64,000 nt of DNA. Source: an uncultured Pirellulaceae bacterium. Its GTDB lineage: Bacteria; Planctomycetota; Planctomycetia; Pirellulales; Pirellulaceae. Positions 5,600 to 47,917 of this stretch are shown in pieces. The notes under the pieces were generated by a model. The model was not told the origin of the DNA, ran no database searches, and saw only the letters and a program-made list of their open reading frames with translations. The translations under genes and the position numbers were made by a program. The stretch covers positions 1 to 64,000 of the forward strand of contig CAKZVF010000100.1 of assembly GCA_937921995.1 (NCBI GenBank), in the 5' to 3' direction. Position 1 is the stretch's first letter. Each line of letters starts with the position of its first letter.

Positions 5600-8500
5600 A
5601 TGACAACGACTCCCGACCCACAAGATATTCCCAGCCGCTTCGATTTCGAAACCGCACAAGACAAAATTTATGACGCTTGGCAATCCGGCGGTTGGTTCCA
5701 TGCCGAACCTGATTCAAAGAAAAAACCCTACACCATTGTCATCCCGCCGCCAAATGTCACCGGCGCCTTGCACTTGGGGCATGCGCTAAACAACACGTTG
5801 CAAGACGTCGTGATCCGCATGAAGCGCATGCAGGGTTTTAATGCGCTGTGGATGCCCGGCACCGATCACGCTGGCATCGCCACACAAGCGCGTGTCGAAA
5901 AACGAATTAAGGATCTCGAAGGCAAGTCACGTCATGATCTGGGGCGCGAGGAGTTGGTCAATCGCATCTGGCAATGGAAAGAACAGTACGAAGAACGTAT
6001 CCTCGGCCAGCTGAAAAAGATGGGTTGCAGCTGCGACTGGGAGCGCACCCGATTCACGTTAGACGACACCTGTGCCCGCGCCGTACGAAAGACGTTCTTT
6101 GATCTGTTTCAGAAATCACTGATCTATCGCGGAAAACGACTGGTCAACTGGGACACGCACTTAGGCACCACCGTCAGCGACGACGAAGTTGAAAACAAAT
6201 CGATCAACGGGCATTTCTGGCACTTCATGTACCCCGTGATCGATCCCAAACCAGGAGAACCTCATCACGTTACCGTTGCCACGACGCGCCCGGAAACGAT
6301 GTTGGGCGACACCGCGGTTGCCGTTCACCCTGATCCGGCCGCAGCGCTGTCGAAGGTTGAATCGGAATTGAAAGCGAAACTTAAAAAGGCACCCGAAAGT
6401 GAACACGCCTCGATCAACGATCAGATTGAAGCGCTGGCAAATCGACGCAAAGCAATGCTGAACGGTTTAGAGTTGCTGCGCGACATGGCCAATGATGGCC
6501 GGATGTTGAGGCTGCCGTTGGCCGATCGCGAGATTCCCTTGGTGACCGACGTGTGGGCGAAACCTGAACTTGGTTCGGGTTGCGTGAAGATCACGCCGGC
6601 TCACGACCCCAACGACTACGAAGTCGGCAAAAGGGCAGGGCTGCCGATGATCAATATCATGAACGCCGATGGGACGCTCAACGCGGAGACCGGCACCTAC
6701 GAGGGTCTGTACATGAAGCAGGCTCGCACAAAAGTCGTCGATGATCTGGAGGCCTTAGGGCTGTTGAAAGAAGTCGAAGATCGCGCGATTGAGATGCCGA
6801 TGTCCGATCGCAGTGGAACGCCGATCGAACCGTATCTGACCGATCAGTGGTTCGTAAAAATGGATCAGTTGGCTCAATCGGCGATGGACGTGGTTGAATC
6901 GGGCGAAGTCAAAATCACGCCCCAACGTTACATCAAAGGTTATTTGTCTTGGTTGGGAGAGAAACGCGATTGGCCGATTTCGCGGCAACTGTGGTGGGGG
7001 CATCAGATCCCTGTTTGGTCAATGCCATGCGCGACCCAAGCGGACGCCGACAAGTTGATCGCGGATATCAAAGGGTTAAAAGCGTTCGACGAAAAACTGG
7101 CGTCCATCCAGACAGAAGCCTCCTCAGAAACGGATTCTGAAAAACGGGCGCAGCTGGGTCTGCCAGATTTCACGCTGCACGTTTGTGTCGAGGATGCCTC
7201 GGAGACGCTTGAGCAAGAACTGGAATCATTGGGCTTGGTACGCGAAGAAGATGTTTTGGATACGTGGTTCAGTTCGGCGCTGTGGCCCTTTTCGACTTTG
7301 GGCTGGCCGGAGCAGACCAAGGAACTAGATTACTTTTATCCAACGTCGGCGCTGATCACCAGCCGCGACATCATTACGCTGTGGGTCGCGCGGATGGTGA
7401 TTATGGGGCTGAATAATCTGGGGCGAGTCCCGTTTAATTCGGTCTTTATTCATCCAAAAATCCTCGACGGCAATGGCGAAACGATGTCCAAGTCCAAGGG
7501 CAACGGCATCGACCCGTTGGATGTGATCGATAAATTTGGCGCCGATGCGCTGCGATTTGGGATGGCCAGTTTAACGACCGAAACCCAAGACGTACGGATG
7601 CCGGTTCAGTTCGAATGCCCGGTCGAATCCTGCCAAGCGGCGATTCCGCAAACGGTCAAAAACCGTGTGCTGCCGGTCGTGGAATGTCCCAAGTGTAAGA
7701 ACAAGTTTCGGACGCAATGGGCAGAGAGAGAAGACGATCTAAAACTACCGCGCGGACCGGTGATCAGCGAACGCTTCGAAGTCGCGCGGAACTTCATGAA
7801 CAAACTTTGGAACGCTTCTCGTTTTGCGATGCTCAATCTGGAGGGTTATGAGGCGGCTCCGATCAAGGAATCGGACCTGACGGTGGAAGACCGCTGGATT
7901 CTTAGCCGGTTGTACACCGTTTCACGGGATGTCACCGAGGCGCTTGAAGGTTATCGCTACGCCGAAGCGACTCGCACACTCTATAACTTTGCCTGGGATA
8001 ATTTTTGCAGTTTCTTTGTGGAGATTCTGAAGGACCGGCTGGCTGATCCCGACCGTCGCGCTCATGCTCAGCGGATCCTCGTGTTCGCGCTGGATCAACT
8101 GTTACGCATGCTGCATCCTGTGATCCCGTTTGTGACCGAAGCGATCTGGGAACAACTGAATCGTTTTGCAGCCGAACGTGGTTTGGAAGAGGTCACCACG
8201 GCCAGTGAATGTTTGATTGGTGCTGCTTGGGCGAAGATTGATCCGAAATGGGCCAATTCAGAAATCGAAACCCAGTTCGCGCGGTTCCAATCAGTGTTGG
8301 GCAGTTTGCGCGAAATCCGGTCGCGCCAGAACCTGCCCCCCAAGAAGGCGATTAAGTTCCTGATTCGCTGCGATGAAGAATACGCGGCCTCGATCGAACC
8401 GATGGCGGGGTACTTCAACAGTATGGCGGCGGCGGAATTGGTGTCCATGGGTGCCAAAGTCGAAGCGCCGGAGATCAACGCACTGATCGCCCAAGATGGA

Positions 8501-12926: not shown

Positions 12927-14096
12927 ATGAATCGACTTGGAAACATTTCTCATTTGCTGATGCCGCTGCCACGTTTTGCGTTGCTGCCAATTCTCTGCAT
13001 GGTCTTTGCGGTGATGTTGACCATTGGAATCGTCGGCTGTGAGACGCAAAAACCAAAACCGCTAACTGCCGCTGAGTCTCAGTCCGCCCGCGAATCGACT
13101 TCACCGACGCTGATAAATTCTTTTGGAATTCAAACAGCGCGATTGGCGATTGAAAACCCAACAGGTCTGCCTGCGACGCTCTACCGCGTCGAGGCCAACG
13201 AGTTAATCGAAGCTAAAACACTGGATGCTCGAGAGACCCATCATTCGTTCGTCGTACCCTCGGGTATTTACTCCATCAGCGTGCATCACACCGACGATGC
13301 AAATTCGGATGAGGCCCAACCACCTATCATCGCGTTCCCAGCACCTGCGATCTCCAGCATCCTTGGTTCTGAGTCGCTCGAAATTAAAATCTCTAAGCCA
13401 CCGGAGCCTGAATCAGGTTGGTGTTGGATCCCAGCGGGCCCTGCGGTGATCGGTGACACGATCGGTGTCGGCGCCGAGAACGAACGGCCGGCGAAAATCG
13501 AATACGTGGCAGCATTCTGGCTTGCCGAAACCGAAGTCACCAACGGCCAGTACACTCAATTTCTTTCCGCTCAAAAATCAGTTGATGAAAAATGGATCGA
13601 CCTAGAAAGCATGAAGTGCCGCATTCAAAAATCGGAAGAAGGCAAATTCTCTTCAGACGCTCCTGAGTTGCCCGTTGTGATGGTGAGTTTCTATGGTGCG
13701 GAAGCCTATTGTGATTGGCTTAGCCAGAAGACAGGAGTGACTCACCGCTTGCCGGTTGAAGTTGAATGGGAAAAAGCTGCACGCGGCCCCAATTCCAACG
13801 TCTACGCTTACGGGAATATTTATCAGCAATCGCTGGCCAATCAAGAAAGTGGAAAACTTAAAGCAATTAAAAGCTATCAACCCAACGCTTACGGGCTGTA
13901 TGATATGACCGGTAACGTATTCGAATGGATGGCCAATCCAAATGATCCAAACGGAGATGCAATCTTCGACCAGAGTCTTCGAGGTGGATCTTTTGTTCTT
14001 GATGGAATGTACCTGCGGAACAGCTTTCGAATGCGGCAGTCAAAAAGCGTGATGACAGACGACATCGGATTTCGAGTTGCCAAGGCGCCGAATTAA
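12927..14096 (+). CDS. Lipoprotein with formylglycine-generating-enzyme (SUMF1) domain
   Basis: A 389-residue protein. A hydrophobic N-terminus ends in the lipobox-like GIVGC near residue 36, so export and lipid anchoring are likely. Residues ~60-160 form an unassigned domain. From WCWIPAG near 168 to the end it is a SUMF1/FGE-type domain with the signatures FWLAETEVTNGQY, RLPVEVEWEKAARG, YGLYDMTGNVFEWM and RGGSF. Most bacterial SUMF1 homologues on the cell surface are not true sulfatase activators and are often of unknown binding function; I do not see the Cys pair of active FGE near the C-terminus. It is followed after 24 nt by the deiodinase-like gene, which suggests co-transcription. Confidence 0.85.
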   Translation: MNRLGNISHLLMPLPRFALLPILCMVFAVMLTIGIVGCETQKPKPLTAAESQSARESTSPTLINSFGIQTARLAIENPTGLPATLYRVEANELIEAKTLDARETHHSFVVPSGIYSISVHHTDDANSDEAQPPIIAFPAPAISSILGSESLEIKISKPPEPESGWCWIPAGPAVIGDTIGVGAENERPAKIEYVAAFWLAETEVTNGQYTQFLSAQKSVDEKWIDLESMKCRIQKSEEGKFSSDAPELPVVMVSFYGAEAYCDWLSQKTGVTHRLPVEVEWEKAARGPNSNVYAYGNIYQQSLANQESGKLKAIKSYQPNAYGLYDMTGNVFEWMANPNDPNGDAIFDQSLRGGSFVLDGMYLRNSFRMRQSKSVMTDDIGFRVAKAPN

Positions 14097-14120: not shown

Positions 14121-14795
14121 ATGAACGCCTCCCCCCTGCCCTCCTCAAGCTCAGGTGAAAAAAGTTCCATCTGGCAAGCGTTTGCCGTTTTTACTTTTTT
14201 CTTAATGCCATCGCTGACCTCCGCCGCACCTGCGCCTCAACAAATGGAACTCCGTGCAAGCGAAGAGTACGACGAAGAAACCTTCAAGAAATCGAAACCG
14301 GCCGTTGGTAGTTTAGCTCCCGACATGCAGCTGAAAACGCTTGACGGTAAAACGGTTTCGCTCGATTCTTATCGCGGCAAGAATATCGTCGTCATCAAGG
14401 CGGGTTATACGTGACCTCCCATCAGACGAAGTGCCGCCGGGTTGCGGCAATTACACAAAGAATATTCGAAGACGGGAAAAACGGAAATTCTGATCGTCTA
14501 CCAGAAGGAGCCGCATCCAGGGCAAATGGCTTTCAAAGAAATTGCTCAACCAGAAACTTTCGAAGCGCGCGTGAAACTGGCGACGAAAATGAAGAGCGAA
14601 TATGAGATGCCGATGACGGTATTGGTGGACACCATGGAGGACCAATCGCGTGCACTTTTCAGCGACCTTCCCAGCCCTGTCTTCATCATCGACGCTAAAG
14701 GCATCATCCAAAACAAGTTTCCATGGCCATATTCTGAGCAGATTAAAACGGCGGTTTCAGAAATGCTCTCCGCTGCCACAGACCAATCCGAATGA
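14121..14795 (+). CDS. Iodothyronine-deiodinase-like selenoprotein (UGA at 14412 read as Sec98)
   Basis: With the in-frame TGA at 14412-14414 read as selenocysteine, one 224-residue protein results. A signal peptide covers ~1-36 (LMPSLTSA), and a thioredoxin-fold domain starts near 62 (GSLAPDMQLKTLDGKTV). The motif GYT-U-PP places the UGA at the redox position. Downstream sequence matches the deiodinase family as I know it: VYQKEPH with His132 (deiodinases have a conserved EAH), AFKEI, and VDTMEDQS at 169-176 (deiodinases VDTMENQS), then a final strand FIIDAKG and a PW pair. A SECIS-like hairpin lies 17 nt past the UGA. Read conventionally, the gene would be a truncated 97-residue protein plus an orphan fragment from 14442. 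The likely location is the periplasm. The substrate is unknown, and iodothyronine should not be assumed. Confidence 0.85.
14432..14449 (+). promoter_or_regulatory. Bacterial SECIS-like hairpin for UGA recoding
   Basis: A 6-bp perfect stem TGCCGC/GCGGCA encloses the loop CGGGTT, which has a G in its second position. The loop starts 23 nt after the UGA. Known bacterial SECIS elements sit directly downstream of the UGA inside the coding region, with a G near the start of the apical loop, and this hairpin fits that description. Confidence 0.6.
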
Positions 14796-14854: not shown

Positions 14855-15301
14855 GTGCGAATAGAGATCATTGAACATGGCGGCCCAAAATACGAATTGA
14901 CCGTTGCCTTGCGAGATCGCGTACTGAGGCAGCCACTGGGTTTGCGATTCAGCGCTGAGCAACTTGCCTCGGAATCAACGTGCATTCACTTTACCGGATC
15001 TGTTAACGACCAAATTATTGCTTGTTGCGTCGCCGCTAAAAAACAGGAGGGCTGGTTCCAAGTCCGACAGGTCGCCGTTGATTTTGACTTCCAGCGCAGA
15101 GCTTTCGGTCGGCAACTGATGGAATTCGTTCATGGGCACATTGCATCACTCGGTGGGAAGGATGTCTTCTGCCATTCCCGGGACGTCGCCGAATCGTTCT
15201 ACGAAAAATTAGGCTATCAAGCCGTCGGCGAGTACTTTGAGGAAGTCTCGATCCACCACATCCGAATGGAAAAGAACCTTGGTCCTACCAAGGCAAACTG
15301 A
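14855..15301 (+). CDS. GNAT family N-acetyltransferase
   Basis: A 148-residue protein of the GCN5-related acetyltransferase fold. The acetyl-CoA loop region is VRQVAVDFDFQRRAFGRQLM (residues ~68-87), and CHSRDVAESFYEKLGYQAVG is the typical last helix and strand. It resembles ElaA-like members of the family. The frame starts at a GTG (14855) 59 nt after the deiodinase-like gene, with no strong ribosome-binding site, so the start is moderately certain. It is probably the last gene of the SUMF1-deiodinase-GNAT cluster and converges on the glycosyltransferase gene, with only 3 nt between them. The acceptor is unknown. Confidence 0.85.
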   Translation: MRIEIIEHGGPKYELTVALRDRVLRQPLGLRFSAEQLASESTCIHFTGSVNDQIIACCVAAKKQEGWFQVRQVAVDFDFQRRAFGRQLMEFVHGHIASLGGKDVFCHSRDVAESFYEKLGYQAVGEYFEEVSIHHIRMEKNLGPTKAN

Positions 15302-46603: not shown

Positions 46604-47917
46604 CTAGACGTAGTCGCGGACTCGGCGAGCGATTGCTAGGGCCAGCGCTTCGCGGACGCTTTCGATTGTGATGCGGTCGAAGACCTGCTGGAAGAATCCG
46701 GTGACGACCACGCGGACGGCTTCCTTGCGAGTGTAACCTCGACACTGAGCGTAGAAGATCAGCTCTTCGTCGACGCGGCCGCTGGTAGAACCGTGCGTGC
46801 AACGCACATCGTCGGCCTCAATTTCCAAACCGGGAATCGAATCAGCGCGGGCCTTTTCGGACAGCAAGAGATTGTCGTTGCGTTGGTAACCGTCGGTTTG
46901 CTGAGCTTCCTGATCGACCTTGATCATGCCGCGCCAAACGGTGCGGGAAACATCCTGCAGCGCTGATTTGTAGAGGAAGTCGCTGACACAATCCGGTTTT
47001 TCATGATGTTGCAGCGTGTGGTAGCTCAGGTGCTGCTTGTTCTCTGTGAAGATCGCACCGTTGACCTGAACGTTGGCCCCTTTGCCTCGCAGTGCTACAT
47101 GCTGGTTGACTTTCGCCAATCGAGAACCCAATGCACCAACAGTCCACTGGAGATTACTGTCTTGGCCGACGATGGCTTTTTGGTGGGCGAAGTGCCAGAC
47201 CTTTTGGCCCCAGTCCTGAAGATTAACGTATCGCAGATTGGCACGATTGCCAACAAACAGTTCGATCGCACCGCAGTGCAGCGCGTTGGTTTCAGCAGCG
47301 CTATTGGATTCGGCCAACACGGTCGCTTCGGCGCCCTCTTCGAGCACGATCAGCGTGTGACGCATGTCGCTGCCACCGTCGGTGACTTGGCTGCTGATGT
47401 GGACAGGTTTATCCAGCGTCACGTTGCGTGGCACGTACAGGAAAACACTGTTGGTCCACAACGCCGCGTGGAGGGCCGCAAAGCGATCAAAGTGTGGATC
47501 GACGGCTTTGAATAGATACTTCTTGATTAGGTCGCCGTGTTCGGCAATCAAATCATTAATCGTTCCAAAGATGACGCCTTTGTCCTTGTACTCATCGGCC
47601 AGTTCGGCCGCTGAATGGGGATGGCTGTCCAGGGTACCGACGCTGCCGGCGAGATCGACGCCTTCACCGAGTACCAACGGTGGCAGATCGCTGCTGGAGG
47701 ATTCGGCGTTGAGCCCGAACTTTTCCAGCTTGAACATCCGAATATCGGTGCGCATCCACTCTTCCATGCTATTGGACGGCCACGGAAGTTCATTGAACTT
47801 CTTCCAGGCGTCCTTGCGCATGTCCTGAAGCCATTGCGGTTCGTTCCGCGCCTCTAACACCGATTGAAATCCGGCATCGTCAAATGCAATCTGTTTTTCT
47901 TGAGTCACTGTTGTCAT
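46604..47917 (-). CDS. sufD: Fe-S cluster assembly protein SufD
   Basis: A 437-residue scaffold partner of SufB and SufC in iron-sulfur cluster assembly. Family motifs include LPWPSNSMEEWMRTDIR near 39-55, VFLYVPRNVTLDKPV in the beta-helix, and near the C-terminus VRCTHGSTSGRVDEELIFYAQCRG, which is the SufB/D core signature. It is last in the sufC-sufB-sufD order, 126 nt after sufB. Its final 27 bp are duplicated at 41717-41743. Confidence 0.95.
   Translation of the reverse strand: MTTVTQEKQIAFDDAGFQSVLEARNEPQWLQDMRKDAWKKFNELPWPSNSMEEWMRTDIRMFKLEKFGLNAESSSSDLPPLVLGEGVDLAGSVGTLDSHPHSAAELADEYKDKGVIFGTINDLIAEHGDLIKKYLFKAVDPHFDRFAALHAALWTNSVFLYVPRNVTLDKPVHISSQVTDGGSDMRHTLIVLEEGAEATVLAESNSAAETNALHCGAIELFVGNRANLRYVNLQDWGQKVWHFAHQKAIVGQDSNLQWTVGALGSRLAKVNQHVALRGKGANVQVNGAIFTENKQHLSYHTLQHHEKPDCVSDFLYKSALQDVSRTVWRGMIKVDQEAQQTDGYQRNDNLLLSEKARADSIPGLEIEADDVRCTHGSTSGRVDEELIFYAQCRGYTRKEAVRVVVTGFFQQVFDRITIESVREALALAIARRVRDYV
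46605..46631. repeat. Right copy of the 27-bp direct repeat, inside sufD
   Basis: Identical to 41717-41743 and part of the sufD coding end, so this copy is presumably the original. Duplication of a gene's 3' end at both borders of a segment resembles the outcome of site-specific integration, although no integrase lies inside. Confidence 0.8.

Follow-up and report, generated by a model that had tools for sequence, protein, structure and literature searches.

The window, the whole stretch of DNA analysed here, comprises 64,000 nucleotides from an uncultured member of the planctomycete family Pirellulaceae and carries two adjacent genes, one for a SUMF1-fold protein and one for a predicted selenoprotein, with a stem-loop of the bacterial SECIS type located inside the latter (Table 1). 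From its ATG to the stop codon at 14793-14795 the selenoprotein gene forms one frame with a sole internal TGA, found in the context GYT-U-PPIRR. At this locus, standard gene calling delivers an ORF of 97 aa and an ORF of 117 aa. The initial annotation had joined two same-frame ORFs across one TGA lying within a T-x-P-P motif and had expected conventional annotation to split the gene; both statements are borne out, with the motif reading T97-U98-P99-P100. Equally, the two further motifs it had named hold their positions in the joined frame, with EPH ending at residue 132 and VDTMEDQS spanning residues 169-176.

Table 1. Features of the two-gene locus, in window coordinates.
Feature	Position	Strand	Description
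SUMF1-fold partner gene	12927..14096	+	Lipobox GIVGC, predicted exported, without the FGE catalytic Cys pair; PF03781 155.4 bits
Selenoprotein gene	14121..14795	+	224 residues, Sec98, signal-peptide-like N-terminus, deiodinase-like thioredoxin-fold domain at about residues 57-222
Predicted signal peptide region	14121..14240	+	About residues 1-40; based on the sequence and on the other clade members
In-frame TGA read as selenocysteine	14412..14414	+	Codon 98; TGA in 10/10 clade members, selection behind the TGA
Stem-loop of bacterial SECIS type	14432..14449	+	TGCCGC (CGGGTT) GCGGCA; covariation

The Pfam scores of the joined protein lie above cut-off for PF08534 (Redoxin, 48.3 bits), PF00578 (AhpC-TSA, 44.5 bits) and PF00837 (T4_deiodinase, 41.6 bits versus a cut-off of 27), and either half scored alone remains below the joined protein. 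The deiodinase profile proposed by the initial annotation thus recognizes the joined protein, though slightly less well than the two other profiles do. From about residue 50 onwards the AlphaFold2 model has high confidence (mean pLDDT 87.5, pTM 0.78), and its active-site helix, residues 99-116, starts directly after the TGA codon, where the redox residue belongs. When codon usage was scanned over the entire 64 kb of the window, two TGA joints had coding signal on both sides; the other one, at 46964 on the forward strand, is antisense to an ORF at 46604-47917 and was rejected, and the TGA at codon 98 is the only credible joint. Export of the selenoprotein is predicted from a hydrophobic N-terminus followed by a mature start, ..QM..R, that is conserved across the clade. 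The protein has no cysteine, nor does the clade have a conserved one. Scanning the window for Rfam families and tRNA genes gave no matches.

The genome, a metagenome-assembled genome (MAG) of 4.8 Mb and 77% completeness, holds the components of selenocysteine insertion named in the initial annotation: selA (585 bits), selB (361 bits), selD (273 bits) and a tRNA-Sec with UCA anticodon were all found, in loci whose GC content matches that of the window. The selD match (L018, G000:C34:22133-23056) is located within a 744-aa open frame of about twice the selD length, which suggests a fusion. The search for homologues covered 241 genomes from the family and 392 from the phylum, mostly MAGs and for the phylum a sample, with other phyla covered by a single-sequence scan. 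Ten sequences form the clade (the window, L051-L055 and L081-L084), whose members come from the Pirellulaceae and from two further family groups of planctomycetes (f12 and f74). The initial annotation had pointed to the orthologous codon, and in all ten members codon 98 is TGA and in none Cys; cysteine at this position occurred only outside the clade, in more remote relatives (for example L056). In comparison with the nearest relative, L051, 77 of the 112 codons behind the TGA are identical, 32 differ synonymously and 3 change the amino acid; the frame behind the TGA is under strong purifying selection. Furthermore, of 24 Sec-form genomes that were checked 23 have selB, versus 6 of 30 genomes in which the PF00837 match listed was without an in-frame TGA; some of these six may carry other selenoproteins, as G112 seems to.

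The putative SECIS element has a stem of 6 bp and a loop CGGGUU, lies 17 nt behind the TGA and has the same position in all ten members; the loop contains a G and its start is 26 nt away from the T of the TGA. Covariation was used to assess the stem-loop because its folding energy alone does not differ significantly from that of shuffled sequences; equally, single-sequence hairpin scores in the clade are marginal versus synonymous-codon shuffles. Across the ten sequences 98.3% of the cells of the stem are paired and nine cells have changed on both sides, values that none of 500 shuffles reached, and sliding the strands against each other abolishes the signal. In the wider family, hairpins are better in 50 Sec genes than in 19 Cys genes (p = 6e-9).

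That the TGA might be a true stop, with the locus a pseudogene, the product of a sequencing error or two separate genes, would agree with the two ORFs of standard gene calling and with the origin of the assembly as a MAG. Such a stop would, however, have to be kept in all ten members, which come from independent genomes, with purifying selection acting behind it, a covarying stem-loop following it and a complete selenocysteine machinery in the same genome, and is considered very improbable. Selenocysteine is by far the best reading of the TGA, and the insertion of Sec98 claimed initially is strongly supported by the genomic machinery, the covarying stem-loop and the invariant codon.

Fold comparison places the selenoprotein close to the deiodinases. 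The top match in the PDB is mouse DIO2 (Foldseek 1.3e-11, VIA Z 19.6), followed by mouse DIO3 (Foldseek 7.2e-11, Z 19.2), while ResA is found about 2 Z units lower (Z 17.7). With DIO1-3 (PF00837; 4tr3, 9h48) the protein has in common the thioredoxin fold, T-Sec-P-P and the VDTM region, and T97, U98, P99, P100, Y127, E130 and H132 are retained. Of the proton relay proposed for Dio2, which includes Thr129, Sec130, Tyr157, Glu160, His162 and His182 (PMC11592359), the first five residues correspond to Thr97, Sec98, Tyr127, Glu130 and His132 of the selenoprotein. The second relay histidine, on the other hand, is replaced by Pro in the clade, the Dio-specific omega-loop insertion is a gap of about eight residues in all members, the C-terminal GxGP of deiodinases is FPW, and neither the proximal nor the distal Cys is present. 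The clade protein also differs from DIO1-3 in being bacterial and predicted to be exported. A maximum-likelihood tree of 73 sequences unites the ten members in one clade (99/97), which is located outside a core clade (99/99) comprising DIO2, DIO3 and most bacterial deiodinase-like proteins, and the NCBIfam model NF038285 (deiodinase_rel) gives 89.2 bits, below its curated cut-off of 250. The initial assignment to the deiodinase family therefore stands with respect to closeness, as seen in the fold search and Pfam, and fails with respect to membership proper, as the tree, the omega-loop, the second histidine and the C-terminal motif indicate; on account of the missing elements and the position outside the core clade the protein is labelled deiodinase-like and not filed as a deiodinase.

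Bacterial deiodinase-like selenoproteins as such are not new. They were described from the Sargasso Sea in 2005, with a redox role suggested without substrate evidence (PMC1088965), and are found in recent lists (PMC9312934, PMC13188914). A UGA-encoded Sec or a Cys, the deiodinase-like domain and a bacterial SECIS are common to these proteins (PMC1088965; NF038285) and the present clade. The sampled ones, however, carry REAHPxDGW and GRGPxG and cluster with the animal deiodinases, whereas the clade has QKEPH, SDLPSP and FPW instead. From the ResA/TlpA thiol-disulfide oxidoreductases, which are equally exported and of thioredoxin fold (Z up to 17.7), the clade is set apart by a single Sec and zero Cys in place of CxxC.

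The searches also gave observations on the wider family. A separate, abundant clade (L058, L061, L070 and many further matches), occurring in many Pirellulaceae, comprises longer frames of about 400-600 aa that have one in-frame TGA each and carry the motifs LTUPPFL and LAHP. Three successive deiodinase-like genes with in-frame TGA are present on one contig (G200:C146:13672-16254; L041, L058). Of the 19 Cys forms, 17 group together in a single clade that is embedded in the Sec forms; selB is missing from most of the genomes concerned. This looks like one change from Sec to Cys with subsequent loss of the Sec machinery. The tree places animal DIO2 and DIO3 among planctomycete TUPPF-type sequences (L021, L027, L033 and relatives); support for this placement is modest (86/84), and it agrees with a bacterial ancestry of the animal enzymes.

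The presence of a SUMF1-like neighbour, mentioned in the initial annotation, is confirmed; the constancy of the partnership goes beyond what had been seen there. In 10/10 members the selenoprotein gene has a partner homologue of this one subfamily directly beside it. In the window the partner gene ends 24 nt upstream of the selenoprotein ATG, and in five members the partner stop and the selenoprotein ATG overlap as ATGA. In L113 (G079:C104, minus strand, 6376-8067) the two are naturally fused into a single 564-residue frame interrupted by one TGA, the selenoprotein part first and the SUMF1 part behind it. Among the 241 family genomes, partner orthologues (493-543 bits) are restricted to the six genomes that also have the selenoprotein and are present in each of them, and the next match to the partner profile reaches 120 bits. 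Since the profile was built from these same partners their high scores are expected; the gap in scores and the absence of unpaired partner orthologues are informative.

The partner has a PF03781 domain (155 bits) and predicted export in common with the FGE/SUMF1 family, and its best PDB sequence matches include FGE, SUMF2, PorK and PvdO. In the alignment of FGE SYLCHDSYCNRYR with the partner SFVLDGMYLRNSFRM, however, the catalytic Cys pair of FGE is Leu in the partner, and no conserved Cys was found at the FGE catalytic site near the C-terminus in the ten partners. Without this pair the partner is therefore not an FGE, and it stays below every NCBIfam cut-off reported. Its SUMF1 domain is strongly conserved; its structure model is of low confidence. 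A literature search for SUMF1 together with selenoproteins or thioredoxin operons returned nothing relevant, and the planctomycete candidates in S9 of PMC4807772 may list the clade.

Beyond the pair, inspection of ORF lists by eye revealed no flanking gene shared across families. A GNAT acetyltransferase gene follows the pair in the window (14855-15301) and likewise in the closest relative (L110); tblastn did not find it at the other eight loci. Downstream of the selenoprotein gene, an exported protein resembling Cu/Zn superoxide dismutase was recognized by eye at the corresponding place in L115 and L116, which belong to the two f12 genomes.

The reading preferred here, to which a probability of about 0.6 is assigned, is that of a two-gene unit in which UGA is decoded as Sec98 and a probable periplasmic selenol reductase acts with a substrate-binding SUMF1-fold partner. 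The products of the unit would both be exported, one being the SUMF1-fold protein and the other the selenoprotein of the deiodinase-like clade, whose UGA is decoded, as the sequence strongly supports, through the stem-loop, SelB and tRNA-Sec. In the periplasm the selenolate of Sec98 would probably attack and reduce an electrophile such as a peroxide, an S-oxide or a C-halogen bond, and Thr97, Tyr127, Glu130 and His132 would supply the proton as a relay of deiodinase type. The oxidised selenium would then be reset by a thiol from outside, which must be external because the selenoprotein is devoid of Cys and has Tyr at position 96; in DIO1 the proximal Cys resolves the oxidised Sec (PMC9141512). 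From the constant pairing and the natural fusion we infer that the SUMF1-fold partner most likely binds a substrate or client and keeps the selenoprotein close to it. An extension of this proposal, put forward tentatively, is an obligate two-component envelope selenoenzyme with a reaction new to both families, for example the Sec-driven reduction of a SUMF1-bound substrate or metal site.

The selenol reductase has two main rivals, a peroxidase and a dehalogenase. A periplasmic, thiol-dependent one-Sec peroxidase resembling 1-Cys peroxiredoxins or GPX, with the SUMF1 protein merely an envelope anchor, would fit the slight lead of Redoxin and AhpC-TSA in Pfam, GPX8 as the best single-sequence match in the PDB, the missing resolving Cys and the Cu/Zn-SOD-like gene nearby in two of ten loci. 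It appears rather unlikely, however, as the active site with T-U-P-P and a distant EPH follows the deiodinase pattern, deiodinases rank first in the fold search, and a mere anchor leaves the strong conservation of the SUMF1 domain unexplained. A deiodinase-like reductive dehalogenase acting on halogenated aromatics or other halogenated compounds would be suggested by the retained Sec, Thr, Tyr, Glu and first His of the proton relay and by DIO2 and DIO3 as the closest folds, but the loss of the substrate-recognition omega-loop, of the second relay His and of the C-terminal motif, together with the position outside the deiodinase core and the lack of any dehalogenation gene seen nearby, makes this an improbable alternative.

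What is new is that a deiodinase-like selenoprotein clade is always paired with one SUMF1-fold subfamily without the FGE catalytic cysteines, which suggests a small, undescribed two-protein system. Both the enzyme and its tie to the SUMF1-fold gene would be missed because standard gene calling cuts the selenoprotein gene into halves. As the clade is located outside the animal-deiodinase group and is without the thyroid-hormone loop, it bears on the roles that such enzymes had before hormone metabolism. The constant pairing and the natural fusion offer a direct way into the question of what bacterial deiodinase-like selenoproteins do.
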